The notes under the pieces: model-generated
Databases searched by the model: none
Told to the model about the DNA's origin: nothing
The model's input: only the letters and a program-made list of their open reading frames with translations
Made by a program: the position numbers and the translations under genes
Part shown: piece by piece, positions 1 to 64,000 of the stretch
How the letters are laid out: each line of letters starts with the position of its first letter
Position numbering within the stretch: position 1 is the stretch's first letter
Source of the DNA: Gordius sp. MW1
Taxonomy: Eukaryota > Nematomorpha > Gordioida > Gordea > Gordiidae
DNA: 64,000 bases
Direction: 5' to 3'
Assembly: GCA_964036665.1 (NCBI GenBank)
Contig: OZ038526.1
Span: forward strand, 15,438,001-15,502,000

Positions 1-5
1 TTTTT

Positions 6-349
6 ACTTGGGATCATAGAAACCACGTCTGAAAACGACAACTTTCATCGGATGAATACGGTTCAAAGTAAAATATGTGAAAAATTTTGAGGCAAAAATA
101 TTTATGTTTTCGATTCTATGTGAAAGAGCATGAAAAAATATATAAAAGTAAGCCAATTTGAGAATCCTATTATCCTCGATTGACTTCCGAAAAGAGGTTT
201 TAAGCTGCGAGAACTATCATTTTGACAAAAGACAATGTTTTATTGTTGCGATTAGTTTGTTGTATCGCAACGTGAGTGCCTAATTTTTGAAAACTGTAAT
301 ATGCGATCATGATTTCAAAGTAATAATTTTTAAATTCTGATAAATTTTT
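6..349 (+). repeat. Type-A variant monomer (first of 15)
   Basis: A coherent haplotype of linked changes: GTAAAATATG, GAGGCAAA, ATTTATGTTTT(T)CG, GACAATGTTTTATTG (which removes the AACGTT site found in most monomers), GTGCCTAATTTT, ACTGTAATATGCG and usually TAATAATTTTTAAATTC. Complete type-A monomers start at 6, 2757, 4471, 7220, 9640, 11361, 15497, 30493, 36696, 41861, 44621, 45311, 46690, 48758 and 51518. Those after 30 kb mostly read GGCAAATATATTT and GAACCATC, forming a subtype; 44621 and 51518 keep the earlier form. None occurs in 16-30 kb or after 52 kb. The minus strand of this tail is open for 61 codons by chance. Confidence 0.85.
100..110 (+). other. ATTTATGTTTT, exact match to the budding-yeast ARS core (type-A monomers only)
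   Basis: The 11-mer fits WTTTAYRTTTW at every position. Ordinary monomers have ATTTATTTTTT here, one mismatch. It recurs in every type-A monomer and in the type-A head of the chimeric monomer 33251. The consensus is defined for Saccharomyces only, and animal or plant origins do not depend on it, so this is recorded as a string match and not as an origin. Confidence 0.25.
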
Positions 350-1626
350 ACTTGGGATCATAGAAACCACGTCTGAAAACGACAACTTTCATCGGATGAA
401 TACGGTTCAAAGAAAAATATGTGAAAAATTTTGAGGTAAAAATATTTATTTATTTCGATTCTATGTGAAAGAGCATGAAAAAATATATAAAAGTAAGCCA
501 ATTTGAGAATCCTATTATCCTCGATTGACTTCCGAAAAGAGGTTTTAAGCTGCGAGAACTATCATTTTGACAAAAGACAACGTTTTATTGTTGCGATTAG
601 TTTGTTGTATCGCAACGTGAGTGCTTAATTTTTGGAAACTGCTCTATGCGATCATGATTTCAAAGTAATAGTTTTTAGATTCTGATAAATATTTACTTGG
701 GATCATAGAAACCACGTCTGAAAACGACAACTTTCATCGGATGAACACGGTTCAAAGAAAAATATGTGAAAAATTTTGAGGTAAAATTTTTTATTTTTTT
801 CGATTCTCTGTGAAAGAGCATGAAAAAATATATAAAAGTAAGCCAATTTGAGAATCCTATTATCCTCGATTGACTTCCGAAAAGAGGTTTTAAGCTGCGA
901 GAACTATCATTTTGACAAAAGACAACGTTTTATTGTTGCGATTAATTTGTTGTATCGCAACGTGAGTGCTTAATTTTTGAAAACTGCTCTATGCGTCAAA
1001 GTAATAGTTTTTAGATTCTGATAAATTTTTACTTGGGATCATAGAAACCACGTCTGAAAACGACAACTTTCATCGGATGAATACGGTTCAAAGAAAAATA
1101 TGTGAAAAATTTTGAGGTAAAATTTTTTATTTTTTTCGATTCTATGTGAAAGAGCATGAAAAAATATATAAAAGTAAGCCAATTTGAGAATCCTATTATC
1201 CTCGATTGACTTCCGAAAAGAGGTTTTAATCTGCGAGAACTATCATTTTGACAAAAGACAACGTTTTATTGTTGCGATTAGTTTGTTGTATCGCAACGTG
1301 AGTGCTTAATTTTTGAAAACTGCTCTATGCGATCATTCAAAGTAATAGTTTTTAGATTCTGATAAATTTTTACTTGGGATCATAGAAACCACGTCTGAAA
1401 ACGACAACTTTCATCGGATGAATACGGTTCAAAAATATGTGAAAAATTGTGAGGTAAAAATATTTATTTTTTTCGATTCTATGTGAAAGAGCATGAAAAA
1501 ATATATAAAAGTAAGTCAATTTGAGAATCCTATTATCCTCGATTGACTTCCGAAAAGAGGTTTTAAGCTGCGAGAACTATCATTTTGACAAAAGACAACG
1601 TTTTATTGTTGCGATTAGTTTGTTGT

Positions 1627-1650
1627 ATCGCAACGTGAAATCGCAACGTG
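1627..1650. repeat. 13 bp tandem duplication of the stem-loop right arm
   Basis: ATCGCAACGTGAA is directly repeated, giving two right arms for one left arm GTTGCGAT. The monomer (start 1372) would be 358 bp but is 354 bp because of a 4 bp loss elsewhere (GTTCAAAAATATG). Confidence 0.9.
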
Positions 1651-2756
1651 AGTGCTTAATTTTTGAAAACTGCTCTATGCGATCATGATTTCAAAGTAAT
1701 AGTTTTTAGATTCTGATAAATTTTTACTTGGGATCATAGAAACCACGTCTGAAAACGACAACTTTCATCGGATGAATACGGTTCAAAGAAAAATATGTGA
1801 AAAATTGTCAGGTAAAAATATTTATTTTTTTCGATTCTATGTGAAAGAGCATGAAAAAATATATAAAAGTAAGCCAATTTGAGAATCCTCTTATATTCGA
1901 TTGACTTCCGAAAAGAGGTTTTAAGCTGCGAGAACTATCATTTAGACAAAAGACAACGTTTTATTGTTGCGATTAGTTTGTTGTATCGCAACGTGAGTGC
2001 TTAATTTTTGAAAACTGCTCTATGCGATCATTCAAAGTAATAGTTTTTAGATTCTGATAAATTTTTACTTGGGATCATAGAAACCACGTCTGAAAACGAC
2101 AACTTTCATCGGATGAATACGGTTCAAAGATAAATATGTGAAAAATTGTGAGGTAAAAATATTTATTTTTTTCGATTCTATGTGAAAGAGCATGAAAAAA
2201 TATATAAAAGTAAGTCAATTTGAGAATCCTATTATCCTCGATTGACTTCCGAAAAGAGGTTTTAAGCTGCGAGAACTATCATTTTGACAAAAGACAACGT
2301 TTTATTGTTGCGATTAGTTTGTTGTATCGCAACGTGAGTGCTTAATTTTTGAAAACTGCTCTATGCGATCATGATTTCAAAGTAATAGTTTTTATATTCT
2401 GATAAATTTTTACTTGGGATCATAGAAACCACGTCTGAAAACGACAACTTTCATCGGATGAATACGGTTCAAAGAAAAATATGTGAAAAATTTTGAGGTA
2501 AAAATATTTATTTTTTTCGATTCTATGTGAAAGAGCATGAAAAAATATATAAAAGTAAGCCAATTTGAGAATCCTATTATCCTCGATTGACTTCCGAAAA
2601 GAGGTTTTAAGCTGCGAGAACTATCATTTTGACAAAAGACAACGTTTTATTGTTGCGATTAGTTTGTTGTATCGCAACGTGAGTGCTTAATTTTTCAAAA
2701 CTGCTCTATGCGGTCATGATTTCAAAGTAAAAGTTTTTAGATTCTGATAAATTTTT

Positions 2757-5700
2757 ACTTAAGATCATAGAAACCACGTCTGAAAACGACAACTTTCATC
2801 GGATGAATACGGTTCAAAGTAAAATATGTGAAAAATTTTGAGGCAAAAATATTTATGTTTTCGATTCTATGTGAAAGAGCATGAAAAAATATATAAAAGT
2901 AAGCCAATTTGAGAATCCTATTATCCTCGATTGACTTCCGAAAAGAGGTTTTAAGCTGCGAGAACTATCATTTTGACAAAAGACAATGTTTTATTGTTGC
3001 GATTAGTTTGTTGTATCGCAACGTGAGTGCCTAATTTTTGAAAACTGTAATATGCGATCATGATTTCAAAGTAATAATTTTTAAATTCTGATAAATTTTT
3101 ACTTGGGATCATAGAAACCACGTCTGAAAACGACAACTTTCATCGGATGAATACGGTTCAAAGAAAAATATGTGAAAAATTTTGAGGTAAAAATATTTAT
3201 TTATTTCGATTCTATGTGAAAGAGCATGAAAAAATATATAAAAGTAAGCCAATTTGAGAATCCTATTATCCTCGATTGACTTCCGAAAAGAGGTTTTAAG
3301 CTGCGAGAACTATCATTTTGACAAAAGACAACGTTTTATTGTTGCGATTAGTTTGTTGTATCGCAACGTGAGTGCTTAATTTTTGGAAACTGCTCTATGC
3401 GATCATGATTTCAAAGTAATAGTTTTTAGATTCTGATAAATATTTACTTGGGATCATAGAAACCACGTCTGAAAACGACAACTTTCATCGGATGAATACG
3501 GTTCAAAGAAAAATATGTGAAAATTTTTGAGGTAAAATTTTTTATTTTTTTCGATTCTAAGAGCATGAAAAAATATATAAAAGTAAGCCAATTTGAGAAT
3601 CCCATATCCTCGATTGACTTCCGAAAAGAGGTTTTAAGCTGCGAGAACTATCATTTTGACAAAAGACAACGTTTTATTGTTGCGATTAGTTTGTTGTATC
3701 GCAACGTGAGTGCTTAATTTTTGGAAACTGCTCTATGCGATCATGATTTCAAAGTAATAGTTTTTAGATTCTGATAAATTTTTACTTGGGATCATAGAAA
3801 CCACGTCTGAAAACGACAACTTTCATCGGATGAATACGGTTCAAAGAAAAATATGTGAAAAATTTTGAGGTAAAAATATTTATTTTTTTCGATTCTATGT
3901 GAAAGAGCATGAAAAAATATATAAAAGTAAGCCAATTTGAGAATCCTATTATCCTGGATTGACTTCCGAAAAGAGGTTTTAAGCTGCGAGAACTATCATT
4001 TTGACAAAAGACAACGTTTTATTGTTGCGATTAGTTTGTTGTATCGCAACGTGAGTGCTTAATTTTTGAAAACTGCTCTATGCGATCATGATTTCAAAGT
4101 AATAGTTTTTAGATTCTGATAAATTTTTACTTGGGATCATGGAAACCACGTCTGAAAACGACAACTTTCATCGGATGAATACGGTTCAAAGAAAAATATG
4201 TGCAAAATTTTGAGGTAAAAATATTTATTTTTTTCGATTCTATGTAAAAGAGCATGAAAAAATATATAAAGTAAGCCAATTTGAGAATCCTATTATCCTC
4301 GATTGACTTCCGAAAAGAGGTTTTAAGCGGCGAGAACTATATTTGACAAAAGACAACGTTTTATTGTTGCGATTAGTTTGTTGTATCGCAACGTGAGAGC
4401 TTAATTTTTAAAAACTGCTCTATGCGATCATGATTTCAAAGTAATAGTTTTTAAATTCTGATAAATTTTTACTTGGGATCATAGAAACCACGTCTGAAAA
4501 CGACAACTTTCATCGGATGAATACGGTTCAAAGTAAAATATGTGAAAAATTTTGAGGCAAAAATATTTATGTTTTCGATTCTATGTGAAAGAGCATGAAA
4601 AAATATATAAAAGTAAGCCAATTTGAGAATCCTATTATCCTCGAATGACTTCCGAAAAGAGGTTTTAAGCTGCGAGAACTATCATTTTGACAAAAGACAA
4701 TGTTTTATTGTTGCGATTAGTTTGTTGTATCGCAACGTGAGTGCCTAATTTTTGAAAACTGTAATATGCGATCATGATTTCAAAGTAATAATTTTTAAAT
4801 TCTGATAAATTTTTACTTGGGATCATAGAAACCACGTCTGAAAACGACAACTTTCATCGGATGAATACGGTTCAAAGAAAAATATGTGAAAAATTTTGAG
4901 GTAAAAATATTTATTTATTTCGATTCTATGTGAAAGAGCATGAAAAAATATATAAAAGTAAGCCAATTTGAGAATCCTATTATCCTCGATTGACTTCCGA
5001 AAAGAGGTTTTAAGCTGCGAGAACTATCATTTTGACAAAAGACAACGTTTTATTGTTGCGATTAGTTTGTTGTATCGCAACGTGAGTGCTTAATTTTTGG
5101 AAACTGCTCTATGCGATCATGATTTCAAAGTAATAGTTTTTAGATTCTGATAAATTTTTACTTGGGATCATAGAAACCACGTCTGAAAACGACAACTTTC
5201 ATCGGATGAATACGGTTCAAAGAAAAATATGTGAAAAATTTTGAGGTAAAAATATTTATTTTTTTCGATTCTATGTGAAAGAGCATGAAAAAATATATAA
5301 AAGTAAGCCAATTTGAAAATCCTATTATCCTCGATTGACTTCCGAAAAGAGGTTTTAAGCTGCGAGAACTATCATTTTGACAAAGACAACGTTTTATTGT
5401 TGCGATTAGTTTGTTGTATCGCAACGTGAGTGCTTAATTTTTGAAAACTGCTCTATGCGATCATGATTTCAAAGTAATAGTTTTTAAATTCTGATAAATT
5501 TTTACTTGGGATCATGGAAACCACGTCTGAAAACGACAACTTTCATCGGATGAATACGGTTCAAAGTAAAATATGTGAAAAATTTTGAGGCAAAAATATT
5601 TATTTTTTTCGATTCTATGTGAAAGAGCATGAAAAAATATATAAAAGTAAGCCAATTTGAGAATCCTATTATCCTCGATTGACTTCCGAAAAGAGGTTTT

Positions 5701-7219
5701 AAGCTGCGAGAACTATCATTTTGACAAAAGACATCGTTTTATTGTTGCGATTAGTTTGTTGTATCGCAACGTGAGTGCTTAATTTTTGAAAACTGCTCTA
5801 TGCGATCATGTTTCAAAGTAATAGTTTTTAGATTCTCATAAATTTTTACATAGAAACCACGTCTGAAAACGACAACTTTCATCGGATGAATACGGTTCAA
5901 AGTAAAATATGTGAAAAATTTTGAGGTAAAAATTTTTATTTTTTTCGATTCTATGTGAAAGAGCATGAAAAAATATATAAAAGTAAGCCAATTTGAGAAT
6001 CCTATTATCCTCGATTGACTTCCGAAAAGAGGTTTTAAGCTGCGAGAACTATCATTTTGACAAAAGACAACGTTTTATTGTTGCGATTAGTTTGTTGTAT
6101 CGCAACGTGAGTGCTTAATTTTTGAAAACTGCTCTATGCGATCATGATTTTAAAGTAATAGTTTTTAGATTCTGATAAATTTTTACTTGGAATCATAGAA
6201 ACCACGTCTGAAAACGACAACTTTCATCGGATGAATACGGTTCAAAGAAAAATATGTGAAAAATTTTGAGGTAAAAATATTTATTTTTTTCGATTCTATG
6301 TGAAAGAGCATAAAAAAATATATAAAAGTAAGCCAATTTGAGAATCCTATTATCCTCGATTGACTTCCGAAAAGAGGTTTTAAGCTGCGAGAACTATCAT
6401 TTTGACAAAAGACAACGTTTTATTGTTGCGATTAGTTTGTTGTATCGCAACGTGAGTGCTTAATTTTTGAAAACTGCTCTATGCGATCATGATTTCAAAG
6501 TAATAGTTTTTAGATTCTGATAAATTTTTACTTGGGATCATAGAAACCACGTCTGAAAACGACAACTTTCATCGGATGAATACGGTTCAAAGTAAAATAT
6601 GTGAAAAATTTTGAGGTAAAAATATTTATTTTTTTCGATTCTATGTGAAAGAGCATGAAAAAATATATAAAAGTAAGCCAATTTGAGAATCCTATTATCC
6701 TCGATTGACTTCCGAAAAGAGGTTTTAAGCTGCGAGAACTATCATTTTGACAAAAGACAACGTTTTATTGTTGCGATTAGTTTGTTGTATCGCAACGTGA
6801 GTGCTTAATTTTTGAAAACTGCTCTATGCGATCATGATTTCAAAGTAATAGTTTTTAGATTCTGATAAATTTTTACTTGGGATCATAGAAACCGCGTCTG
6901 AAAACGACAACTTTCATCGGATGAATACGGTTCAAAGAAAAATATGTGAAAAGTTTTGAGGTAAAAATATTTATTTTTTTCGATTCTATGTGAAAGAGCA
7001 TGAAAAAATATATAAAAGTAAGCCAATTTGAGAATCCTATTATCCTCGATTGACTTCCGAAAAGAGGTTTTAAGCTGCGAGAACTATCATTTTGACAAAA
7101 GACAACGTTTTATTGTTGCGATTAGTTTGTTGTATCGCAACGTGAGTGCTTAATTTTTCAAAACTGCTCTTTGCGGTCATGATTTCAAAGTAAAAGTTTT
7201 TAGATTCTGATAAATTTTT
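2757..7219 (+). repeat. Mixed block of 13 monomers, including an early copy of the 12-mer segment
   Basis: Monomer starts: 2757, 3101, 3446, 3784, 4129, 4471, 4815, 5160, 5504, 5848, 6185, 6530, 6875. The first two repeat the head of the 8-mer HOR, with ACTTAAGATC instead of ACTTGGGATC at 2757. From 3446 to about 5463 the monomers match 10329-12353 and 14465-16489, including the 342 bp monomer, GAAAATCC and GACAAAGACAACG variants. Monomer 3446 has a private 6 bp loss, CGATTCTAAGAGC. Monomer 5848 lacks 8 bp of the anchor. Starts 6185 (GGAATCATAG), 6875 (ACCGCGTCTG, GAAAAGTTTTG) and the type-A monomer that follows at 7220 prefigure the order seen in the 10-mer HOR. Confidence 0.8.
5843..5853 (+). 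repeat. Anchor deletion: monomer lacking CTTGGGAT
   Basis: TTTTTACATAG replaces TTTTTACTTGGGATCATAG, an 8 bp loss that shortens this monomer to 337 bp. It is the only monomer in the window without a recognisable ACTTG anchor and was placed by its flanks. The preceding tail also has CATGTTTC and TTCTCATA, private changes. Confidence 0.85.
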
Positions 7220-9639
7220 ACTTGGGATCATAGAAACCACGTCTGAAAACGACAACTTTCATCGGATGAATACGGTTCAAAGTAAAATATGTGAAAAATT
7301 TTGAGGCAAAAATATTTATGTTTTCGATTCTATGTGAAAGAGCATGAAAAAATATATAAAAGTAAGCCAATTTGAGAATCCTATTATCCTCGATTGACTT
7401 CCGAAAAGAGGTTTTAAGCTGCGAGAACTATCATTTTGACAAAAGACAATGTTTTATTGTTGCGATTAGTTTGTTGTATCGCAACGTGAGTGCCTAATTT
7501 TTGAAAACTGTAATATGCGATCATGATTTCAAAGTAATAATTTTTAAATTCTGATAAATTTTTACTTGGGATCATAGAAACCACGTCTGAAAACGACAAC
7601 TTTCATCGGATGAATACGGTTCAAAGAAAAATATGTGAAAAATTTTGAGGTAAAAATATTTATTTATTTCGATTCTATGTGAAAGAGCATGAAAAAATAT
7701 ATAAAAGTAAGCCAATTTGAGAATCCTATTATCCTCGATTGACTTCCGAAAAGAGGTTTTAAGCTGCGAGAACTATCATTTTGACAAAAGACAACGTTTT
7801 ATTGTTGCGATTAGTTTGTTGTATCGCAACGTGAGTGCTTAATTTTTGGAAACTGCTCTATGCGATCATGATTTCAAAGTAATAGTTTTTAGATTCTGAT
7901 AAATATTTACTTGGGATCATAGAAACCACGTCTGAAAACGACAACTTTCATCGGATGAACACGGTTCAAAGAAAAATATGTGAAAAATTTTGAGGTAAAA
8001 TTTTTTATTTTTTTCGATTCTATGTGAAAGAGCATGAAAAAATATATAAAAGTAAGCCAATTTGAGAATCCTATTATCCTCGATTGACTTCCGAAAAGAG
8101 GTTTTAAGCTGCGAGAACTATCATTTTGACAAAAGACAACGTTTTATTGTTGCGATTAGTTTGTTGTATCGCAACGTGAGTGCTTAATTTTTGAAAACTG
8201 CTCTATGCGATCATTCAAAGTAATAGTTTTTAGATTCTGATAAATTTTTACTTGGGATCATAGAAACCACGTCTGAAAACGACAACTTTCATCGGATGAA
8301 TACGGTTCAAAGATAAATATGTGAAAAATTGTGAGGTAAAAATATTTATTTTTTTCGATTCTATGTGAAAGAGCATGAAAAAATATATAAAAGTAAGTCA
8401 ATTTGAGAATCCTATTATCCTCGATTGACTTCCGAAAAGAGGTTTTAAGCTGCGAGAACTATCATTTTGACAAAAGACAACGTTTTATTGTTGCGATTAG
8501 TTTGTTGTATCGCAACGTGAAATCGCAACGTGAGTGCTTAATTTTTGAAAACTGCTCTATGCGATCATGATTTCAAAGTAATAGTTTTTAGATTCTGATA
8601 AATTTTTACTTGGGATCATAGAAACCACGTCTGAAAACGACAACTTTCATCGGATGAATACGGTTCAAAGAAAAATATGTGAAAAATTGTGAGGTAAAAA
8701 TATTTATTTTTTTCGATTCTATGTGAAAGAGCATGAAAAAATATATAAAAGTAAGCCAATTTGAGAATCCTCTTATATTCGATTGACTTCCGAAAAGAGG
8801 TTTTAAGCTGCGAAAACTATCATTTAGACAAAAGACAACGTTTTATTGTTGCGATTAGTTTGTTGTATCGCAACGTGAGTGCTTAATTTTTGAAAACTGC
8901 TCTATGCGATCATTCAAAGTAATAGTTTTTAGATTCTGATAAATTTTTACTTGGGATCATAGAAACCACGTCTGAAAACGACAACTTTCATCGGATGAAT
9001 ACGGTTCAAAGATAAATATGTGAAAAATTGTGAGGTAAAAATATTTATTTTTTTCGATTCTATGTGAAAGAGCATGAAAAAATATATAAAAGTAAGTCAA
9101 TTTGAGAATCCTATTTTACCTCGATTGACTTCCGAAAAGAGGTTTTAAGCTGCGAGAACTATCATTTTGACAAAAGACAACGTTTTATTGTTGCGATTAG
9201 TTTGTTGTATCGCAACGTGAGTGCTTAATTTTTGAAAACTGCTCTATGCGATCATGATTTCAAAGTAATAGTTTTTAGATTCTGATAAATTTTTACTTGG
9301 GATCATAGAAACCACGTCTGAAAACGACAACTTTCATCGGATGAATACGGTTCAAAGAAAAATATGTGAAAAATTTTGAGGTAAAAATATTTATTTTTTT
9401 CGATTCTATGTGAAAGAGCATAAAAAAATATATAAAAGTAAGCCAATTTGAGAATCCTATTATCCTCGATTGACTTCCGAAAAGAGGTTTTAAGCTGCGA
9501 GAACTATCATTTTGACAAAAGACAACGTTTTATTGTTGCGATTAGTTTGTTGTATCGCAACGTGAGTGCTTAATTTTTCAAAACTGCTCTATGCGGTCAT
9601 GATTTCAAAGTAAAAGTTTTTAGATTCTGATAAATTTTT
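7220..9639 (+). repeat. 7-monomer derivative of the 8-mer HOR
   Basis: Monomer starts: 7220, 7564, 7909, 8250, 8608, 8949, 9295. The first three align with 6, 350 and 695 at an offset of 7214 bp, including the rare GATGAACACGG at 7909. Monomer 7909 then ends like monomer 1031 (GATCATTCAAAG) instead of like 695 (GCGTCAAAG), so one monomer has been lost by fusion of two. Starts 8250, 8608 and 8949 match 1372, 1726 and 2067, including the 13 bp duplication and CTTATATTCG. Start 9295 matches 2412 but has CATAAAAAAAT. Confidence 0.8.
8509..8532. repeat. 13 bp tandem duplication of the stem-loop right arm
   Basis: Same allele as at 1627, in the corresponding monomer (start 8250) of the 7-monomer derivative, length 358 bp. 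Supports descent of the two blocks from one HOR. Confidence 0.9.
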
Positions 9640-12600
9640 ACTTGGGATCATAGAAACCACGTCTGAAAACGACAACTTTCATCGGATGAATACGGTTCAA
9701 AGTAAAATATGTGAAAAATTTTGAGGCAAAAATATTTATGTTTTCGATTCTATGTGAAAGAGCATGAAAAAATATATAAAAGTAAGCCAATTTGAGAATC
9801 CTATTATCCTCGATTGACTTCCGAAAAGAGGTTTTAAGCTGCGAGAACTATCATTTTGACAAAAGACAATGTTTTATTGTTGCGATTAGTTTGTTGTATC
9901 GCAACGTGAGTGCCTAATTTTTGAAAACTGTAATATGCGATCATGATTTCAAAGTAATAATTTTTAAATTCTGATAAATTTTTACTTGGGATCATAAAAA
10001 CCACGTCTGAAAACGACAACTTTCATCGGATGAATACAGTTCAAAGAAAAATATGTGAAAAATTTTGAGGTAAAAATATTTATTTATTTCGATTCTATGT
10101 GAAAGAGCATGAAAAAATATATAAAAGTAAGCCAATTTGAGAATCCTATTATCCTCGATTGACTTCCGAAAAGAGGTTTTAAGCTGCGAGAACTATCATT
10201 TTGACAAAAGACAACGTTTTATTGTTGCGATTAGTTTGTTGTATCGCAACGTGAGTGCTTAATTTTTGGAAACTGCTCTATGCGATCATGATTTCAAAGT
10301 AATAGTTTTTAGATTCTGATAAATATTTACTTGGGATCATAGAAACCACGTCTGAAAACGACAACTTTCATCGGATGAATACGGTTCAAAGAAAAATATG
10401 TGAAAATTTTTGAGGTAAAATTTTTTATTTTTTTCGATTCTATGTGAAAGAGCATGAAAAAATATATAAAAGTAAGCCAATTTGAGAATCCTATTATCCT
10501 CGATTGACTTCCGAAAAGATGTTTTAAGCTGCGAGAACTATCATTTTGACAAAAGACAACGTTTTATTGTTGCGATTAGTTTGTTGTATCGCAACGTGAG
10601 TGCTTAATTTTTGGAAACTGCTCTATGCGATCATGATTTCAAAGTAATAGTTTTTAGATTCTGATAAATTTTTACTTGGGATCATAGAAACCACGTCTGA
10701 AAACGACAACTTTCATCGGATGAATACGGTTCAAAGAAAAATATGTGAAAAATTTTGAGGTAAAAATATTTATTTTTTTCGATTCTATGTGAAAGAGCAT
10801 GAAAAAATATATAAAAGTAAGCCAATTTGAGAATCCTATTATCCTGGATTGACTTCCGAAAAGAGGTTTTAAGCTGCGAGAACTATCATTTTGACAAAAG
10901 ACAACGTTTTATTGTTGCGATTAGTTTGTTGTATCGCAACGTGAGTGCTTAATTTTTGAAAACTGCTCTATGCGATCATGATTTCAAAGTAATAGTTTTT
11001 AGATTCTGATAAATTTTTACTTGGGATCATGGAAACCACGTCTGAAAACGACAACTTTCATCGGATGAATACGGTTCAAAGAAAAACATGTGAAAAATTT
11101 TGAGGTAAAAATATTTATTTTTTTCGATTCTATGTAAAAGAGCATGAAAAAATATATAAAGTAAGCCAATTTGAGAATCCTATTATCCTCGATTGACTTC
11201 CGAAAAGAGGTTTTAAGCGGCGAGAACTATATTTGACAAAAGACAACGTTTTATTGTTGCGATTAGTTTGTTGTATCGCAACGTGAGAGCTTAATTTTTG
11301 AAAACTGCTCTATGCGATCATGATTTCAAAGTAATAGTTTTTAAATTCTGATAAATTTTTACTTGGGATCATAGAAACCACGTCTGAAAACGACAACTTT
11401 CATCGGATGAATACGGTTCAAAGTAAAATATGTGAAAAATTTTGAGGCAAAAATATTTATGTTTTCGATTCTATGTGAAAGAGCATGAAAAAATATATAA
11501 AAGTAAGCCAATTTGAGAATCCTATTATCCTCGATTGACTTCCGAAAAGAGGTTTTAAGCTGCGAGAACTATCATTTTGACAAAAGACAATGTTTTATTG
11601 TTGCGATTAGTTTGTTGTATCGCAACGTGAGTGCCTAATTTTTGAAAACTGTAATATGCGATCATGATTTCAAAGTAATAATTTTTAAATTCTGATAAAT
11701 TTTTACTTGGGATCATAGAAACCACGTCTGAAAACGACAACTTTCATCGGATGAATACGGTTCAAAGAAAAATATGTGAAAAATTTTGAGGTAAAAATAT
11801 TTATTTATTTCGATTCTATGTGAAAGAGCATGAAAAAATATATAAAAGTAAGCCAATTTGAGAATCCTATTATCCTCGATTGACTTCCGAAAAGAGGTTT
11901 TAAGCTGCGAGAACTATCATTTTGACAAAAGACAACGTTTTATTGTTGCGATTAGTTTGTTGTATCGCAACGTGAGTGCTTAATTTTTGGAAACTGCTCT
12001 ATGCGATCATGATTTCAAAGTAATAGTTTTTAGATTCTGATAAATTTTTACTTGGGATCATAGAAACCACGTCTGAAAACGACAACTTTCATCGGATGAA
12101 TACGGTTCAAAGAAAAATATGTGAAAAATTTTGAGGTAAAAATATTTATTTTTTTCGATTCTATGTGAAAGAGCATGAAAAAATATATAAAAGTAAGCCA
12201 ATTTGAAAATCCTATTATCCTCGATTGACTTCCGAAAAGAGGTTTTAAGCTGCGAGAACTATCATTTTGACAAAGACAACGTTTTATTGTTGCGATTAGT
12301 TTGTTGTATCGCAACGTGAGTGCTTAATTTTTGAAAACTGCTCTATGCGATCATTCAAAGTAATAGTTTTTAGATTCTGATAAATTTTTACTTGGGATCA
12401 TAGAAACCACGTCTGAAAACGACAACTTTCATCGGATGAATACGGTTCAAAGATAAATATGTGAAAAATTGTGAGGTAAAAATATTTTTTTTTTTCGATT
12501 CTATGTGAAAGAGCATGAAAAAATATATAAAAGTAAGCCAATTTGAGAATCCTATTATCCTCGATTGACTTCCGAAAAGAGGTTTTAAGCTGCGAGAACT

Positions 12601-17874: not shown

Positions 17875-17914
17875 TGATTTCAAAGTAATAGTTTTTAGAT
17901 TCTGATAAATTTTT

Positions 17915-32611: not shown

Positions 32612-32620
32612 TACGGTTCA

Positions 32621-51400: not shown

Positions 51401-51862
51401 CAACGTTTTATTGTTGCGATTAGTTTGTTGTATCGCAACGTGAGTGCTTAATTTTTCAAAACTGCTCTATGCGGTCATGATTTCAAAGTAAAAGTTTTTA
51501 GATTCTGATAAATTTTTACTTGGGATCATAGAAACCACGTCTGAAAACGACAACTTTCATCGGATGAATACGGTTCAAAGTAAAATATGTGAAAAATTTT
51601 GAGGCAAAAATATTTATGTTTTTCGATTCTATGTGAAAGAGCATGAAAAAATATATAAAAGTAAGCCAATTTGAGAATCCTATTATCCTCGATTGACTTC
51701 CGAAAAGAGGTTTTAAGCTGCGAGAACTATCATTTTGACAAAAGACAATGTTTTATTGTTGCGATTAGTTTGTTGTATCGCAACGTGAGTGCCTAATTTT
51801 TGAAAACTGTAATATGCGATCATGATTTCAAAGTAATAGTTTTTAAATTCTGATAAATTTTT
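48413..51862 (+). repeat. 10-monomer HOR, copy 3 (3450 bp)
   Basis: Monomer starts: 48413, 48758, 49102, 49447, 49792, 50137, 50483, 50828, 51173, 51518. Each lies 6897 bp after its partner in copy 2 and all ten lengths agree. The shared stretch runs about 4.4 kb in total, from near 40590/47487 to 44984/51881, where ACCGCGTCTG (copy 2 side) versus ACCACGTCTG (copy 3 side) marks the divergence. Only single-base differences were noticed inside it. Confidence 0.9.
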
Positions 51863-53924: not shown

Positions 53925-56900
53925 ACTTGGGATCATAGAAACCACGTCTGAAAACGACAACTTTCATCGGATGAATACGGTTCAAAGAAAAATATGTGAA
54001 AAGTTTTGAGGTAAAATTTTTTATTTTTTTCGATTCTATGCGAAAGAGCATGACAAAATATATAAAAGTAATTCAATTTGAGAATCCTATTATCCTCGAT
54101 TGACTTCCGAAAAGAGGTTTTAAGCTGCGAGAACTATCATTTTGACAAAAGACAACGTTTTATTGTTGCGATTAGTTTGTTGTATCGCAACGTGGCTTAA
54201 TTTTTGAAAAATGCTCTATGCGATCATGATTTCAAAGTAATAGTTTTTAGATTCTGATAAATTTTTACTTGGGATCATAGAAACCACGTCTGAAAACGAC
54301 AACTTTCATCGGATGAATACGGTTCAAAGAAAAATATGTGAAATATTTTGAGGTAAAAAAATTTATTTTTTTCGATTCTCTGTGAAAGAGCATAAAAAAA
54401 TATATAAAAGTAAGCCAATTTGAGAATCCTATTAACCTGGATTGACTTCCGAAAATAGGTTTTAAGCTGCGAGAACTATCATTTTGACAAAAGACAACGT
54501 TTTATTGTTGCGATTAGTTTGTTGTATCGTACGTGGCTTAATTTTTAAAAAATGCTCTATGCGATCATGATTTCAAAGTAATAGTTTTTAGATTCTGATA
54601 AATATTTACTTGGGATCATAGAAACCACGTGTGAAAACGCCAACTTTCATCGGATGAATACGGTTCAAAGAAAAATATGTGAAAAATTTTGAGGTAAAAT
54701 TTTTTATTTTTTTCGATTCTATGTGAAAGAGCATGAAAAAATATATAAAAGTAATTCAATTTGAGAATCCTATTATCCTCAATTGACTTCCGAAAAGAGG
54801 TTTTAAGCTGCGAGAACTATCATTTTGACAAAAGACAACGTTTTATTGTTGCGATTAGTTTGTTGTATCGCAACGTGAGTGCTTAATTTTTGAAAACTGC
54901 TCTATGCGATCATGATTTCAAAGTAATAGTTTTTAGATTCTGATAAATTTTTACTTGGGATCATAGAAACCACGTCTGAAAACGACAACTTTCATCGGAT
55001 GAATACGGTTCAAAGAAAAATATGTGAAAAGTTTTGAGGTAAAATTTTTTATTTTTTTCGATTCTATGTGAAAGAGCATGACAAAATATATAAAAGTAAT
55101 TCAATTTGAGAATCCTATTATCCTCGATTGACTTCCGAAAAAGGTTTTAAGCTGCGAGAACTATCATTTTGACAAAAGACAACGTTTTATTGTTGCGATT
55201 AGTTTGTTGTATCGCAACGTGCTTAATTTTTGAAAACTGCTCTATGCGATCATGATTTCAAAGTAATAGTTTTTAGATTCTGATAAATTTTAACTTGGGA
55301 TCATAGAAACCACGTCTGAAAACGACAACTTTCATCGGATGAATACGGTTCAAAGAAAAATATGTGAAAAGTTTTGAGGTAAAAACATTTATTTTTTTCG
55401 ATTCTATGTGAAAGAGCATGAAAAAATATATAAAAGTAAGCCAGTTTGAGAATCCTATTATCGTCGATTGACTTCCGAAAAGAGGTTTTAAGCTGCGAGA
55501 ACTAATTTTGACAAAAGACAACGTTTTATTGTTGCGATTAGTTTGTTGTATCGCAACGTGGCTTAATTTTTGAAAAATGCTCTATGCGATCATGATTTCA
55601 AAGTAATAGTTTTTAGATTCTGATAAATTTTTACTTGGGATCATAGAAACCACGTCTGAAAACGACAACTTTCATCGGATGAATACGGTTGAAAGAAAAA
55701 TATGTGAAAAATTTTGAGGTAAAAATATTTAGTTTTTTCGATTCTATGTGAAAGAGCATGAAAAAATATATAAAAGTAAGCCAATTTGAGAATCCTATTA
55801 TCCTGGATTGACTTCCGAAAAGAGGTTTTAAGCTGCGAGAACTATCATTTTGACAAAAGACAACGTTTTATTGTTGCGATTAGTTTGTTGTATCGCAACG
55901 TGAGTGCTTAATTTTTGAAAACTGCTCTATGCGATCATTCAAAGTAATAGTTTTTAGATTCTGATAAATTTTTACTTGGGATCATAGAAACCACGTCTGA
56001 AAACGACAACTTTCATCGGATGAATACGGTTCAAAGAAAAATATGTGAAAAATTTTGAGGTAAAAATATTTATTTTTTTCGATTCTATGTGAAAGAGCAT
56101 GAAAAAATATATAAAAGTAAGCCAATTTGAGAATCCTATTATCCTCGATTGACTTCCGAAAAGAGGTTTTAAGCTGCGAGAACTATCATTTTGACAAAAG
56201 ACAACGTTTTATTGTTGCGATTAGTTTGTTGTATCGCAACGTGATTGCTTAATTTTTGAAAACTGCTCTATGCGATCATGATTTCAAAGTAATAGTTTTT
56301 AGATTCTGATAAATTTTTACTTGGGATCATAGAAACCACGTCTGAAAACGACAACTTTCATCGGATGAATACGGTTCAAAGAAAAATATGTCAAAAATTT
56401 TGAGGTAAAAATATTTATTTTTTTCGATTCTATGTGAAAGAGCATGAAAAAATATATAAAAGTAAGCCAATTTGAGAATCCTATTATCCTCGATTGACTT
56501 CCGAAAAGAGGTTTTAAGCTGCGAGAACTATCATTTAGACAAAAGACAACGTTTTATTGTTGCGATTAGTTTGTTGTATCGCAACGTGAGTGCTTAATTT
56601 TTGAAAACTGCTCTATGCGATCATTCAAAGTAATAGTTTTTAGATTCTGATAAATTTTTACTTGGGATCATAGAAACCACGTCTGAAAACGACAACTTTC
56701 ATCTGATGAATACGGTTCAAAGATAAATATGTGAAAAATTGTGAGGTAAAAATATTTATTTTTTTCGATTCTATGTGAAAGAGCATGAAAAAATATATAA
56801 AAGTAAGTCAATTTGAGAATCCTATTATCCTCGATTGACTTCCGAAAAGAGGTTATAAGCTGCGAGAACTATCATTTTGACAAAAGACAACGTTTTATTG

Positions 56901-59407
56901 TTGCGATTAGTTTGTTGTATCGCAACGTGATTGCTTAATTTTTGAAAACTGCTCTATGCGATCATAATTTCAAAGTAATAGTTTTTAGATTCTGATAAAT
57001 TTTTACTTGGGATCATAGAAACCACGTCTGAAAACGACAACTTTGATCGGATGAATACGGTTCAAAGAAAAATATGTGAAAAATTTTGAGGCAAAAATAT
57101 TTATTTTTTTCGATTCTATGTGAAAGAGCATGAAAAAATATATAAAAGTAAGTCAATTTGAGAATCCTATTATCCTCGATTGACTTCCGAAAAGAGGTTT
57201 TAAGCTGCGAGAACTATCATTTTGACAAAAGACAACGTTTTATTGTTGCGATTAGTTTGTTGTATCGCAACGTGATTGCTTAATTTTTGAAAACTGCTCT
57301 ATGCGATCATGATTTCAAAGTAATAGTTTTTAGATTCTGATAAATTTTTACTTGGGATCATAGAAACCACGTCTGAAAACGACAACTTTCATCGGATGAA
57401 TACGGTTCAAAGATAAATATGTGAAAAATTGTGAGGTAAAAATATTTATTTTTTTTCGATTCTATGTGAAAGAGCATGAAAAAATATATAAAAGTAAGTC
57501 AATTTGAGAATCCTATTATCCTCGATTGACTTCCGAAAAGAGGTTTTAAGCTGCGAGAACTATCATTTTGACAAAAGACAACGTTTTATTGTTGCGATTA
57601 GTTTGTTGTATCGCAACGTGATTGCTTAATTTTTGAAAACTGCTCTATGCGATCATGATTTCAAAGTAATAGTTTTTAGATTCTGATAAATTTTTACTTG
57701 GGATCATAGAAACCACGTCTGAAAACGACAACTTTCATCGGATGAATACGGTTCAAAGAAAAATATGTGAAAAATTTTGAGGTAAAAATATTTATTTTTT
57801 TCAATTCTATGTGAAAGAGCATGAAAAAATATATAAAAGTAAGCCAATTTGAGAATCCTATTATCCTCGATTGACTTCCGAAAAGAGGTTTTAAGCTGCG
57901 AGAACTATCATTTTGACAAAAGGCAACGTTTTATTGTTGCGATTAGTTTGTTGTATCGCAACGTGAGAGCTTAATTTTTGAAAACTGCTCTATGCGATCA
58001 TGATTTTAAAGTAATAGTTTTTAGATTCTGATAAATTTTTACTTGGGATCATAGAAACCACATCTGAAAACGACAACTTTCATCTGATGAATACGGTTCA
58101 AAGAAAAATATGTGAAAAATTTTGAGGTAAAAATATTTATTTTTTTCGATTCTATGTGAAAGAGCATGAAAAAATATATAAAAGTAAGCCAATTTAAGAA
58201 TCCTATTATCCTCGATTGATTTCCGAAAAGAGGTTTTAAGCTGCGAGAATTATCATTTTGACAAAAGACAACGTTTTATTGTTGCGATTAGTTTGTTGTA
58301 TCGCACCGTGAGTGCTTAATTTTTAAAAACTGCTCTATGCGATCATGATTTCAAGGTAATAGTTTTTAGATTCTGATAAATTTTTACTTGGAATCATAGA
58401 AACCACGTCTGAAAACGACAACTTTCATCGGATGAATACGGTTCAAAGAAAAATATGTGAAAAATTTTGAGGTAAAAATATTTATTTTTTTCGATTCTAT
58501 GTGAAAGAGCATAAAAAAATATATAAAAGTAAGCCAATTTGAGAATCCTATTATCCTCGATTGACTTCCGAAAAGAGGTTTTAAGCTGCGAGAACTATCA
58601 TTTTGACAAAAGACAACGTTTTATTGTTGCGATTAGTTTGTTGTATCGCAACGTGAGTGCTTAATTTTTGAAAACTGCTCTATGCGATCATGATTTCAAA
58701 GTAATAGTTTTTAGATTCTGATAAATTTTTACTTGGGATCATAGAAACCACGTCTGAAAACGACAACTTTCATCGGATGAATACGGTTCAAAGAAAAATA
58801 TGTGAAAAATTTTGAGGTAAAAATATTTATTTTTTTCAATTCTATGTGAAAGAGCATGAAAAAATATATAAAAGTAAGCCAATTTGAGAATCCTATTATC
58901 CTCGATTGACTTCCGAAAAGAGGTTTTAAGCTGCGAGAACTATCATTTTGACAAAAGACAACGTTTTATTGTTGCGATTAATTTGTTGTATCGCAACGTG
59001 AGTGCTTAATTTTTGAAAACTGCTCTATGCGTCAAAGTAATAGTTTTTAGATTCTGATAAATTTTTACTTGGGATCATAGAAACCACGTCTGAAAACGAC
59101 AACTTTCATCGGATGAATACGGTTCAAAGAAAAATATGTGAAAAATTTTGAGGTAAAATTTTTTATTTTTTTCGATTCTATGTGAAAGAGCATGAAAAAA
59201 TATATAAAAGTAAGCCATTTTGAGAATCCTATTATCCTCGATTGACTTCCGAAAAGAGGTTTTAATCTGCGAGAACTATCATTTTGACAAAAGACAACGT
59301 TTTATTGTTGCGATTAGTTTGTTGTATCGCAACGTGAGTGCTTAATTTTTGAAAACTGCTCTATGCGATCATTCAAAGTAATAGTTTTTAGATTCTGATA
59401 AATTTTT
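53925..59407 (+). repeat. 16-monomer, 5483 bp unit, copy 1
   Basis: Monomer starts: 53925, 54267, 54608, 54953, 55293, 55633, 55974, 56319, 56660, 57005, 57350, 57696, 58041, 58386, 58731, 59067. Lengths 342, 341, 345, 340, 340, 341, 345, 341, 345, 345, 346, 345, 345, 345, 336, 341. Early monomers have GTAATTCAATTTG and GAGCATGACAAA; the middle ones have CGTGATTGC tails. The last two (336, 341 bp) match 695 and 1031 at the other end of the window, including the GCGTCAAAG deletion and AGGTTTTAATCTG. Confidence 0.9.
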
Positions 59408-62400
59408 ACTTGGGATCATAGAAACCACGTCTGAAAACGACAACTTTCATCGGATGAATACGGTTCAAAGAAAAATATGTGAAAAGTTTTGAGGTAAAAT
59501 TTTTTATTTTTTTCGATTCTATGCGAAAGAGCATGACAAAATATATAAAAGTAATTCAATTTGAGAATCCTATTATCCTCGATTGACTTCCGAAAAGAGG
59601 TTTTAAGCTGCGAGAACTATCATTTTGACAAAAGACAACGTTTTATTGTTGCGATTAGTTTGTTGTATCGCAACGTGGCTTAATTTTTGAAAAATGCTCT
59701 ATGCGATCATGATTTCAAAGTAATAGTTTTTAGATTCTGATAAATTTTTACTTGGGATCATAGAAACCACGTCTGAAAACGACAACTTTCATCGGATGAA
59801 TACGGTTCAAAGAAAAATATGTGAAATATTTTGAGGTAAAAAAATTTATTTTTTTCGATTCTCTGTGAAAGAGCATAAAAAAATATATAAAAGTAAGCCA
59901 ATTTGAGAATCCTATTAACCTGGATTGACTTCCGAAAATAGGTTTTAAGCTGCGAGAACTATCATTTTGACAAAAGACAACGTTTTATTGTTGCGATTAG
60001 TTTGTTGTATCGTACGTGGCTTAATTTTTAAAAAATGCTCTATGCGATCATGATTTCAAAGTAATAGTTTTTAGATTCTGATAAATATTTACTTGGGATC
60101 ATAGAAACCACGTGTGAAAACGCCAACTTTCATCGGATGAATACGGTTCAAAGAAAAATATGTGAAAAATTTTGAGGTAAAATTTTTTATTTTTTTCGAT
60201 TCTATGTGAAAGAGCATGAAAAAATATATAAAAGTAATTCAATTTGAGAATCCTATTATCCTCAATTGACTTCCGAAAAGAGGTTTTAAGCTGCGAGAAC
60301 TATCATTTTGACAAAAGACAACGTTTTATTGTTGCGATTAGTTTGTTGTATCGCAACGTGAGTGCTTAATTTTTGAAAACTGCTCTATGCGATCATGATT
60401 TCAAAGTAATAGTTTTTAGATTCTGATAAATTTTTACTTGGGATCATAGAAACCACGTCTGAAAACGACAACTTTCATCGGATGAATACGGTTCAAAGAA
60501 AAATATGTGAAAAGTTTTGAGGTAAAATTTTTTATTTTTTTCGATTCTATGTGAAAGAGCATGACAAAATATATAAAAGTAATTCAATTTGAGAATCCTA
60601 TTATCCTCGATTGACTTCCGAAAAAGGTTTTAAGCTGCGAGAACTATCATTTTGACAAAAGACAACGTTTTATTGTTGCGATTAGTTTGTTGTATCGCAA
60701 CGTGCTTAATTTTTGAAAACTGCTCTATGCGATCATGATTTCAAAGTAATAGTTTTTAGATTCTGATAAATTTTAACTTGGGATCATAGAAACCACGTCT
60801 GAAAACGACAACTTTCATCGGATGAATACGGTTCAAAGAAAAATATGTGAAAAGTTTTGAGGTAAAAACATTTATTTTTTTCGATTCTATGTGAAAGAGC
60901 ATGAAAAAATATATAAAAGTAAGCCAGTTTGAGAATCCTATTATCGTCGATTGACTTCCGAAAAGAGGTTTTAAGCTGCGAGAACTAATTTTGACAAAAG
61001 ACAACGTTTTATTGTTGCGATTAGTTTGTTGTATCGCAACGTGGCTTAATTTTTGAAAAATGCTCTATGCGATCATGATTTCAAAGTAATAGTTTTTAGA
61101 TTCTGATAAATTTTTACTTGGGATCATAGAAACCACGTCTGAAAACGACAACTTTCATCGGATGAATACGGTTGAAAGAAAAATATGTGAAAAATTTTGA
61201 GGTAAAAATATTTATTTTTTTCGATTCTATGTGAAAGAGCATGAAAAAATATATAAAAGTAAGCCAATTTGAGAATCCTATTATCCTGGATTGACTTCCG
61301 AAAAGAGGTTTTAAGCTGCGAGAACTATCATTTTGACAAAAGACAACGTTTTATTGTTGCGATTAGTTTGTTGTATCGCAACGTGAGTGCTTAATTTTTG
61401 AAAACTGCTCTATGCGATCATTCAAAGTAATAGTTTTTAGATTCTGATAAATTTTTACTTGGGATCATAGAAACCACGTCTGAAAACGACAACTTTCATC
61501 GGATGAATACGGTTCAAAGAAAAATATGTGAAAAATTTTGAGGTAAAAATATTTATTTTTTTCGATTCTATGTGAAAGAGCATGAAAAAATATATAAAAG
61601 TAAGCCAATTTGAGAATCCTATTATCCTCGATTGACTTCCGAAAAGAGGTTTTAAGCTGCGAGAACTATCATTTTGACAAAAGACAACGTTTTATTGTTG
61701 CGATTAGTTTGTTGTATCGCAACGTGATTGCTTAATTTTTGAAAACTGCTCTATGCGATCATGATTTCAAAGTAATAGTTTTTAGATTCTGATAAATTTT
61801 TACTTGGGATCATAGAAACCACGTCTGAAAACGACAACTTTCATCGGATGAATACGGTTCAAAGAAAAATATGTCAAAAATTTTGAGGTAAAAATATTTA
61901 TTTTTTTCGATTCTATGTGAAAGAGCATGAAAAAATATATAAAAGTAAGCCAATTTGAGAATCCTATTATCCTCGATTGACTTCCGAAAAGAGGTTTTAA
62001 GCTGCGAGAACTATCATTTAGACAAAAGACAACGTTTTATTGTTGCGATTAGTTTGTTGTATCGCAACGTGAGTGCTTAATTTTTGAAAACTGCTCTATG
62101 CGATCATTCAAAGTAATAGTTTTTAGATTCTGATAAATTTTTACTTGGGATCATAGAAACCACGTCTGAAAACGACAACTTTCATCTGATGAATACGGTT
62201 CAAAGATAAATATGTGAAAAATTGTGAGGTAAAAATATTTATTTTTTTCGATTCTATGTGAAAGAGCATGAAAAAATATATAAAAGTAAGTCAATTTGAG
62301 AATCCTATTATCCTCGATTGACTTCCGAAAAGAGGTTATAAGCTGCGAGAACTATCATTTTGACAAAAGACAACGTTTTATTGTTGCGATTAGTTTGTTG

Positions 62401-64000
62401 TATCGCAACGTGATTGCTTAATTTTTGAAAACTGCTCTATGCGATCATAATTTCAAAGTAATAGTTTTTAGATTCTGATAAATTTTTACTTGGGATCATA
62501 GAAACCACGTCTGAAAACGACAACTTTGATCGGATGAATACGGTTCAAAGAAAAATATGTGAAAAATTTTGAGGCAAAAATATTTATTTTTTTCGATTCT
62601 ATGTGAAAGAGCATGAAAAAATATATAAAAGTAAGTCAATTTGAGAATCCTATTATCCTCGATTGACTTCCGAAAAGAGGTTTTAAGCTGCGAGAACTAT
62701 CATTTTGACAAAAGACAACGTTTTATTGTTGCGATTAGTTTGTTGTATCGCAACGTGATTGCTTAATTTTTGAAAACTGCTCTATGCGATCATGATTTCA
62801 AAGTAATAGTTTTTAGATTCTGATAAATTTTTACTTGGGATCATAGAAACCACGTCTGAAAACGACAACTTTCATCGGATGAATACGGTTCAAAGATAAA
62901 TATGTGAAAAATTGTGAGGTAAAAATATTTATTTTTTTTCGATTCTATGTGAAAGAGCATGAAAAAATATATAAAAGTAAGTCAATTTGAGAATCCTATT
63001 ATCCTCGATTGACTTCCGAAAAGAGGTTTTAAGCTGCGAGAACTATCATTTTGACAAAAGACAACGTTTTATTGTTGCGATTAGTTTGTTGTATCGCAAC
63101 GTGATTGCTTAATTTTTGAAAACTGCTCTATGCGATCATGATTTCAAAGTAATAGTTTTTAGATTCTGATAAATTTTTACTTGGGATCATAGAAACCACG
63201 TCTGAAAACGACAACTTTCATCGGATGAATACGGTTCAAAGAAAAATATGTGAAAAATTTTGAGGTAAAAATATTTATTTTTTTCAATTCTATGTGAAAG
63301 AGCATGAAAAAATATATAAAAGTAAGCCAATTTGAGAATCCTATTATCCTCGATTGACTTCCGAAAAGAGGTTTTAAGCTGCGAGAACTATCATTTTGAC
63401 AAAAGGCAACGTTTTATTGTTGCGATTAGTTTGTTGTATCGCAACGTGAGAGCTTAATTTTTGAAAACTGCTCTATGCGATCATGATTTTAAAGTAATAG
63501 TTTTTAGATTCTGATAAATTTTTACTTGGGATCATAGAAACCACATCTGAAAACGACAACTTTCATCTGATGAATACGGTTCAAAGAAAAATATGTGAAA
63601 AATTTTGAGGTAAAAATATTTATTTTTTTCGATTCTATGTGAAAGAGCATGAAAAAATATATAAAAGTAAGCCAATTTAAGAATCCTATTATCCTCGATT
63701 GATTTCCGAAAAGAGGTTTTAAGCTGCGAGAATTATCATTTTGACAAAAGACAACGTTTTATTGTTGCGATTAGTTTGTTGTATCGCACCGTGAGTGCTT
63801 AATTTTTAAAAACTGCTCTATGCGATCATGATTTCAAGGTAATAGTTTTTAGATTCTGATAAATTTTTACTTGGAATCATAGAAACCACGTCTGAAAACG
63901 ACAACTTTCATCGGATGAATACGGTTCAAAGAAAAATATGTGAAAAATTTTGAGGTAAAAATATTTATTTTTTTCGATTCTATGTGAAAGAGCATAAAAA
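59408..64000 (+). repeat. 16-monomer, 5483 bp unit, copy 2, cut by window end
   Basis: Monomer starts: 59408, 59750, 60091, 60436, 60776, 61116, 61457, 61802, 62143, 62488, 62833, 63179, 63524, 63869. All lie exactly 5483 bp after copy 1. Even private changes are retained: ATGCGAAAG at 54038/59521, TCAAGGTAAT at 58351/63834 and the CATAAAAA ending the window. One difference noticed: ATATTTAGTTTTT near 55727 versus ATATTTATTTTTT near 61210. The final monomer is truncated at 132 bp. Confidence 0.9.

Follow-up and report, generated by a model that had tools for sequence, protein, structure and literature searches.

The window, meaning the whole 64,000-nucleotide stretch analysed here, is satellite DNA: a long head-to-tail array of one unit that is abundant and present at several locations. 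The array has likely been shaped by many independent, single, in-register duplications of blocks of monomers, together with a finer mixing of variants.

Duplicated blocks in a regular array

An AT-rich monomer of ~345 bp occupies positions 1 to 64,000 on the forward strand without interruption, and all 186 monomer spacings in the window measure 316-358 bp. The window belongs to a one-strand array of 191 kb (about -88,885 to 102,500 in window coordinates), in which 553 of 556 spacings keep to the same range. The outliers are 278, 282 and 689 bp, the last reflecting a diverged monomer at about 100 kb whose anchor went undetected. Mean divergence across the whole array is 3%, neighbouring monomers are ~97% alike (about 10-11 changes apart), and 24 variant columns of the 191-kb array exceed 5% frequency. 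A 46-bp core of the satellite has 18,228 exact copies in the genome, with satellite places on contigs C5, C8 and, among the matches listed, C2; 1.4 kb of the window is 97% identical to places on C5. A dimeric origin of the monomer was rejected, as its two halves share no meaningful similarity, and folding of whole-monomer DNA is unremarkable (z 0.12). Strings of the satellite sequence were unmatched in the published text covered by the search, outside which most subscription papers and supplements lie.

The preliminary description listed eight multimer periods for the window, and each is present as an exact same-strand repeat whose longest match is between 722 and 3,653 bp. The assigned sizes of 8, 12, 3, 9, 10, 4, 20 and 16 monomers (offsets of 2751, 4136, 997, 3036, 3450, 1379, 6897 and 5483 bp) are also correct; 997 and 3036 bp fall below 3 and 9 full monomer lengths owing to the 316-bp monomers in that stretch. 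These matches come from an exhaustive listing of exact same-strand matches inside the window. It replaced a megablast self-comparison that gave six rows and one of the eight offsets (the 3036 region), a result judged to reflect a limit in reporting overlapping hits.

Three of the eight offsets are contiguous pairs, with length/offset ratios of 1.03-1.21; all copies at the eight offsets lie on the forward strand. The 997-bp pair (17692..18900 and 18689..19897) extends over 1,209 bp with 1 edit (ratio 1.21; longest exact matches 722 and 486 bp) and has a unit of 3 monomers, one of them 316 bp. The 1379-bp pair (45139..46628 and 46518..48007) is exact over 1,490 bp (0 edits, ratio 1.08). The 3036-bp pair (18717..21839 and 21753..24875) extends over 3,123 bp with 6 edits (ratio 1.03; longest exact match 1,911 bp). 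Its first copy overlaps both the 997-bp pair and a 659-bp pair, and we can only infer the order of events among the three.

Two further offsets are nearly contiguous, with 174-400 unmatched bases between copies. At 4136 bp, copies at 10087..13822 and 14223..17962 match over 3,736 bp with 1 edit (ratio 0.90; longest exact match 3,653 bp; 400-bp gap). At 5483 bp, the match covers 5,313 bp with 2 edits (ratio 0.97; longest exact matches 2,785 and 1,843 bp; 174-bp gap) from 53812..59124 to 59299..64000, the second copy continuing beyond the window end as far as about 64,607.

The other three are spaced duplicates, with ratios of 0.37-0.64. The 2751-bp pair spans 1,101 bp with 3 edits (ratio 0.40; longest exact match 734 bp), its first copy occupying 1..745 in a match that starts before the window at -355 and its second 2396..3496. 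The 6897-bp pair (40577..44984 and 47474..51881) spans 4,408 bp with 1 edit (ratio 0.64; longest exact matches 2,224 and 2,183 bp). Inside its first copy lies the first copy of the 3450-bp pair (41500..42759 and 44950..46209), exact over 1,260 bp (0 edits, ratio 0.37). Equally strong offsets had gone unlisted; examples are a match of 5,154 bp (99.84%) at 11,368 bp and one of 4,382 bp (99.54%) at 6,878-6,890 bp. The opposite-strand array holds like duplicates, one exact over 4,206 bp at offset 4,110 and another of 1,792 bp at 1,713.

Copy number and the question of higher-order repeats

The preliminary description interpreted these periods as higher-order repeats (HORs) in a patchwork of short local amplifications with no single dominant period. 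The lack of a dominant period extends to the 191-kb array, in which the best of 119 lags connects just 8% of monomers, and the window offsets together with the duplicate pairs in the 191 kb support a patchwork of separate local amplifications. If HOR means a multimer repeated over and over, the term is not borne out: blocks have about two copies each, and three of the eight pairs are non-adjacent.

Evidence on copy number comes from tandem pairs extended from exact seeds of at least 300 bp and accepted at a length of at least 690 bp, an identity of at least 99.5% and a length/offset ratio of at least 0.85. Among the 21 such base-level pairs in 191 kb, the ratio ranges from 0.90 to 1.39 and is never near 2, and therefore no third copy is present. 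Three-copy multimers accordingly number 0 of 21 base-level pairs and 0 of 15 monomer-level pairs (lags 2-59) in the 191 kb. Copies of a multimer are 99.5-100% identical, the lower figure following from the cut used, versus about 97% for neighbouring monomers.

True HORs, that is, several adjoining families of multimers amplified and homogenised as units, would likewise produce distinct multimers with copies up to 100% identical amid neighbours about 10-11 changes apart. Some periodicity is also seen in a motif-presence string from C2 (247 monomer positions, among the matches listed for the first 100 places), with an autocorrelation of 0.23 at lag 5, just above the shuffle 95% limit of 0.21, and an agreement over 20 monomers at lag 14 (shuffle 95% limit 18, maximum 22). 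However, this signal borders on chance, and the lack of third copies and the small share of monomers connected by the best lag both make true HORs improbable. Rolling-circle amplification with reinsertion of extrachromosomal circles has been proposed as a general route for satellite growth (PMC8122249), but the runs of several identical multimers expected from it are not seen in the 191 kb, and its contribution here is very improbable.

Long exact matches could also arise by chance among ~97% alike monomers drawn from a few subfamilies. Tandem pairs number 15 and near-identical runs 103 in the real order of 555 monomers (191 kb, lags 2-59), whereas 50 shuffles of that order average 0.04 and 2.5, which leaves chance similarity with almost no credibility.

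Within the window, 200 shuffles set a 95% threshold that 5 of 99 lags (12, 16, 20, 33 and 53) surpass; lag 53, being 33+20, is a nested effect. Each of the lags of 3, 4, 8, 9 and 10 monomers occupies only a short stretch and so is not prominent across the window as a whole. One lag-1 run stands outside the pair counts: at offset 345 it covers 1,587 bp at 98.87%, or about 5.6 single monomers, and lies under the 99.5% cut and beyond the range of lags 2-59. Single monomers may thus be copied repeatedly.

Local spread, nesting and probable mixing of variants

Marker variants follow the blocks. A 13-bp-duplication variant has all 16 of its exact copies within 263 kb (15.250-15.513 Mb of C8), at spacings of 4136, 7225, 4840 and 1385 that agree with block offsets. 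Four window monomers carry it, at 1626, 8508, 13334 and 17470 on the forward strand (stretch 1626..17494), the last two 4136 bp apart as block duplication predicts. Five forward-strand deletion monomers of 316 bp (stretch 18247..23254; starts 18247, 19244, 19903, 22280 and 22939) similarly mark block copies by their spacings of 997, 659 and 3036. The visible duplication events are a local spread, as followed with the one 13-bp marker.

These markers also bear on an assembly artefact, in which the assembler wrote one segment twice. Satellite arrays are difficult for assemblers, several pairs are 100% identical across 1.3-6.6 kb, and the analysis was made from assembled sequence alone. Yet 17 of the 21 pairs contain at least one difference, marker variants recur at nested block spacings, and the 264 kb examined around the window contain no N. 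An artefact is therefore an unlikely source of the pairs.

Under the favoured account of block duplication, each event would take a run of ~2 to 30 adjacent monomers and place a single in-register copy beside it. Such events would most likely arise when misaligned sister chromatids undergo homology-driven exchange, or when break-induced replication re-enters out of register. Duplications made later would land inside earlier ones, which would therefore produce nested offsets and push some copies apart. Junction overlaps are positive in 18 of 21 pairs (median 113.5 bp) and resemble tract lengths at randomly chosen homologous points, whose median is 96.5 bp (p = 0.23, with null points lacking a local 12-base match scored 0), so ordinary homology suffices.

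Single variants would also be mixed between monomers by a finer process, which is most likely short-tract gene conversion. Within monomers, r2 is 0.38 at <10 bp, a value inflated because a 4-bp deletion was counted as four columns, and 0.04 at 10-40 bp. All four combinations occur in 32-62% of site pairs >10 bp apart, some of which could stem from recurrent mutation. This low linkage suggests short-tract conversion in addition to block duplication.

A young-array model was simulated in 8 runs with a mean block of 15 monomers and 8 mutations per event, the best of 12 settings picked by hand. It gave 13.2 tandem pairs versus 15 observed, 0 triples versus 0, a longest run of 30.4 versus 30 and 113 runs versus 103. 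It yielded 1.4 common variants versus the 24 observed variant columns, too few for block duplication and new mutation to be the whole account. An equilibrium simulation was rejected as overpredicting duplicates (26-55 tandem pairs, 224-786 runs, mean distance 7.6-17.1). The 3% divergence, the 24 common variant columns and the identity to C5 call for one of two things: an array that is still fairly young and started from a mixed pool, or extra homogenisation.

The dyad, the contig and known systems

Each monomer carries one conserved 27-bp dyad. The strand switch lies about 38.5 kb beyond the window end and is direct, joining the 191-kb arm to an opposite arm traced for 61 kb in what may be a macro-dyad layout. 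Judged from sequence features, the satellite is possibly, on a tentative reading, a putative (peri)centromeric macro-dyad repeat of an invertebrate outside Tribolium, with the 27-bp dyad box selected as a candidate protein-binding or cruciform site and the rest freely reshuffled by block duplication. Against the CENP-B box motif, the consensus at best matches 6 of 9 conserved core bases, short of a box.

CCCTAA repeats (TTAGGG-type) fill the first 600 bases of C8, whose other end is a GGACAACGGAC-type minisatellite without CCCTAA repeats. Exact 25-mers of TTAGG occur at 2 places and those of TCAGG at 0. Tribolium telomeres differ from this combination of a CCCTAA contig start and 0 TCAGG 25-mers. 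The T. castaneum major satellite TCAST was rejected as a match: two published primers, allowed up to 4 edits, had 0 matches in 264 kb, and one searched genome-wide had 0 at up to 2 mismatches. For COX1, the ascidian mitochondrial code was judged less likely than code 5, given that AGA falls where serine is presumably found.

This type of array is already known. Satellite turnover becomes countable here: an event apparently adds about one copy, blocks measure ~2 to 30 monomers, register is strict and, judged by the single marker traced, copies spread across hundreds of kilobases instead of throughout the genome. With marker variants it could be possible to put single events in order. Simple array-evolution models become testable, and the block-duplication picture fits them without overturning them.

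Arabidopsis CEN178 arrays may resemble this one, with local duplications in irregular pairs in place of a single HOR. The CEN178 monomer is 178 bp, in another host, versus ~345 bp here. A term search of PMC10804481 gave no HOR passage. The (peri)centromeric satellites of Tribolium form abundant, long, strand-switching arrays, as here, and satellite macro-dyads were documented only in Tribolium according to PMC13081366.

As in human alpha-satellite HOR arrays (PMC8122249), multi-monomer blocks are more alike than neighbouring monomers. Unlike those arrays, no block is repeated many times, and neighbours are ~97% alike versus ~70% for alpha-satellite units within a HOR (PMC8122249). PMC8997354 describes unequal sister-chromatid exchange (Smith 1976) as a model for tandem repeats and break-induced replication as one for satellite centromeres. 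The case treated there is that of human alpha-satellite HORs, whereas here multimers stay at ~2 copies and no HOR takes over; in-register block duplication, nesting and local homogeneity are common to those models and this array.

Local duplication of satellite blocks

The array shows the usual kind of satellite turnover, in which duplications are local, nested, and in register and leave each block at about two copies. The window, at positions 15,438,001-15,502,000 of contig C8, consists without a break of head-to-tail copies of an AT-rich repeat of ~345 bp (30-31% GC; 185.4 copies; 186 monomer spacings of 316-358 bp) and keeps to one strand throughout. In window coordinates, this one-strand (plus) array begins near -88,885 and extends for 191 kb to about 102,500, where the strand changes.

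Eight multimer offsets had been reported in the preliminary description: 2751, 4136, 997, 3036, 3450, 1379, 6897, and 5483 bp, labeled 8-, 12-, 3-, 9-, 10-, 4-, 20-, and 16-mers. A self-comparison listing every exact same-strand match of at least 60 bp recovers all eight in the window, with longest exact matches per offset of 722 to 3,653 bp, and the labels are correct; the observation is real and precise. Offsets 997 and 3036 are slightly short because 316-bp monomers occur in that stretch (starting at window coordinates 18247, 19244, 19903, 22280, and 22939). As had also been claimed for the window, no single lag (distance counted in monomers) dominates there, nor does one in the 191 kb. In the window, lag 20 is the strongest (11% of monomer pairs differ by two or fewer changes), followed by 33, 12, 16, and 53; across 191 kb the top of 119 lags is 30, with 8%. 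The actual order of 555 monomers contains 15 tandem pairs and 103 near-identical runs at lags 2-59, versus means of 0.04 and 2.5 in 50 shuffles of monomer order, which abolish the effect.

Matches were extended through differences from exact seeds of at least 300 bp, excluding words seen more than 400 times from seeding. Offsets 997, 1379, and 3036 are contiguous pairs (ratio of match length to offset, 1.03-1.21), 4136 (ratio 0.90, 400-bp gap) and 5483 (0.97, 174-bp gap) are near-contiguous, and 6897 (0.64), 2751 (0.40), and 3450 (0.37) are spaced duplicates. At a cut of at least 690 bp, at least 99.5% identity, and a ratio of at least 0.85, the 191 kb holds 21 tandem pairs, which are partly dependent because some are nested inside others; their stretches cover 52% of the array, and for the window alone the figure is 44%. 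One pair of 1,468 bp at offset 1385 occurs twice, 4,840 bp apart, within a larger duplication. The biggest duplications lie in other parts of the array: one of 10,643 bp with an offset of 10,270 (99.96%), and an exact one of 6,615 bp whose offset is 6,517. A like event in the opposite-strand array that follows the switch is an exact match of 4,206 bp with an offset of 4,110.

None of the 21 pairs in 191 kb reaches a third copy (ratio 2; the maximum is 1.39), and none of the 15 monomer-level pairs among 555 monomers at lags 2-59 has three copies, so the multimers were copied about once each. One lag-1 run of about 5.6 single monomers (1,587 bp, offset 345, 98.87%) falls under the 99.5% identity cut and outside the monomer-level lags. 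The proposed patchwork of higher-order repeats thus holds as a patchwork of local duplications, but not of true higher-order repeats, as the blocks have about two copies.

Duplication that ignored register would give junction monomers of odd length. Spacings lie within 316-358 bp in 553 of 556 cases; the exceptions are 278, 282, and 689, the last because one diverged monomer, about 2.5 kb ahead of the strand switch, escaped anchor detection. Junction overlap is positive in 18 of the 21 pairs (median 113.5 bp) and does not exceed the length of the tract that matches around randomly chosen homologous positions (median 96.5, p = 0.23); by eye, junction positions show no obvious clustering within the monomer. 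Blocks may have been duplicated by homologous unequal exchange or by out-of-register break-induced replication, and the in-register duplicates fit both alike. The available part of PMC8997354 describes both models and also gives a microhomology end-joining view for maize.

Array age and locality of spread

An array at equilibrium, simulated with block duplication and deletion balanced with mutation, is rejected because, for the diversity observed, its duplicates are too numerous: 26-55 tandem pairs and 224-786 runs where the mean distance is 7.6-17.1, versus 15 and 103 at 11.0. In simulation, a young array grown from a uniform start comes closer. With a mean block of 15 and 8 mutations per event, the most successful of 12 settings produces 13.2 tandem pairs, no triples, a longest run of 30.4, and 113 runs, versus 15, 0, 30, and 103 observed. 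The same setting yields 1.4 common variants versus 24 observed columns, four of which are one 4-bp deletion. Beyond 10 bp, variant linkage is weak (mean r2 0.006-0.04) and 32-62% of variant pairs show all four combinations, which argues that variants were shared and mixed beforehand, most simply by short-tract conversion or in a mixed founding pool. Mean monomer distance climbs slowly with lag, from 10.4 to 11.2. Given this slow rise and the mixing, the earlier suggestion of turnover without array-wide replacement is neither shown nor excluded.

A 13-bp-duplication variant, traced genome-wide as an exact 25-mer, has 16 copies, all in a single orientation at 15,250,129-15,512,832 of the window's contig (C8), 15 of them in the examined 264-kb region. 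Their spacings include 4136, 7225, 4840, and 1385, block offsets found independently. A 1,258-bp exact inverted match links -88,670, at the start of the plus array, with 126,032 in the opposite-strand array, ~215 kb apart, and suggests transfer across orientation.

A conserved dyad in the monomer

Each window monomer carries a 27-bp dyad, GTTGCGAT-N11-ATCGCAAC, at consensus positions 246-272 (counted from 0) of 345 bp. In 555 plus-strand monomers it is the lowest-variability 27-bp window (0.45% versus 2.06% elsewhere; rank 1 of 319); among 159 opposite-strand monomers its rank is 4 of 319, dropping to 13 of 319 when just the 43 most diverged of them are taken. This conservation is a lead, as site permutation ignores monomer relatedness. 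Perfect 8-bp dyads number 515 versus 555 aligned plus-strand monomers and 151 versus 159 on the opposite strand. The dyad arms vary less than the loop in the 43 most diverged monomers (0.7% versus 3.8%), but slightly more in the plus array (0.61 versus 0.21%) and the other 116 opposite-strand monomers (0.38 versus 0.16%), leaving a pairing-maintained structure unsupported. A dyad 44-mer, chosen after the dyad was seen, folds better than every one of 200 shuffles. In the 43 most diverged monomers, the top-conserved 27-bp window is CGACAACTTTCATCGGATGAATACGGT (consensus 36-62, from 0; 0.7%). The best CENP-B-box-like match in the consensus overlaps this window and fails at 6/9.

Genomic setting and comparison with known satellites

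The assembly comprises 211.8 Mb in 12 contigs, of which C8 accounts for 37.4 Mb; CCCTAA repeats occupy its first 600 bases. Exact matches to a 46-bp satellite core number 18,228 genome-wide (6,157 forward, 12,071 reverse), and the 264-kb region around the window holds 466 exact cores per about 728 monomer anchors. By this ratio the genome may total ~28,000 monomers, near 10 Mb or 5% of the assembly, presuming that the region is typical.

A 2.06-kb insert at -90,941 to -88,885 is bounded by terminal direct repeats of 552 bp that are 98% alike, and it has no open frame of more than 76 codons; in this it resembles a short non-autonomous LTR-type element. Two 2,153-bp inserts with internal repeats (151,919-154,072 and 159,200-161,353) are 99.95% alike and 7,281 bp apart; nearby exact satellite matches share this offset, so both were copied along with the satellite.

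Elsewhere, the genome has a histone 3' stem-loop and two large tandem histone gene clusters on contig C2 (12.99-13.21 and 15.18-15.28 Mb; units about 5.2 and 6.3 kb), the first with two strand changes among the matches listed. COX1 reads through with code 5 on C12, taken as mitochondrial. Together with the CCCTAA repeats of C8, the stem-loop and this reading of COX1 point towards an invertebrate animal as host. Many COX1-like copies on nuclear contigs (C8:2829490-2830827, plus C1, C3, C4, and C5), one covering positions 1-435 of a 436-position profile, are likely nuclear mitochondrial insertions.

A literature text search with satellite sequence strings gave no match. TCAST, the T. castaneum major satellite, is absent as judged by one published primer (from the available part of PMC7598501) that has no match genome-wide. 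The strand switch lies at about 102,400-102,730 in window coordinates (C8:15,540,391-15,540,727) and is direct, with no obvious sequence in between; the opposite arm is only ~92% like the consensus at its start and 97% further on. The available part of PMC13081366 reports that Tribolium satellites switch strand and states that macro-dyads of this kind had been documented in Tribolium only; strand switching is a feature of those satellites and of this ~345-bp array.
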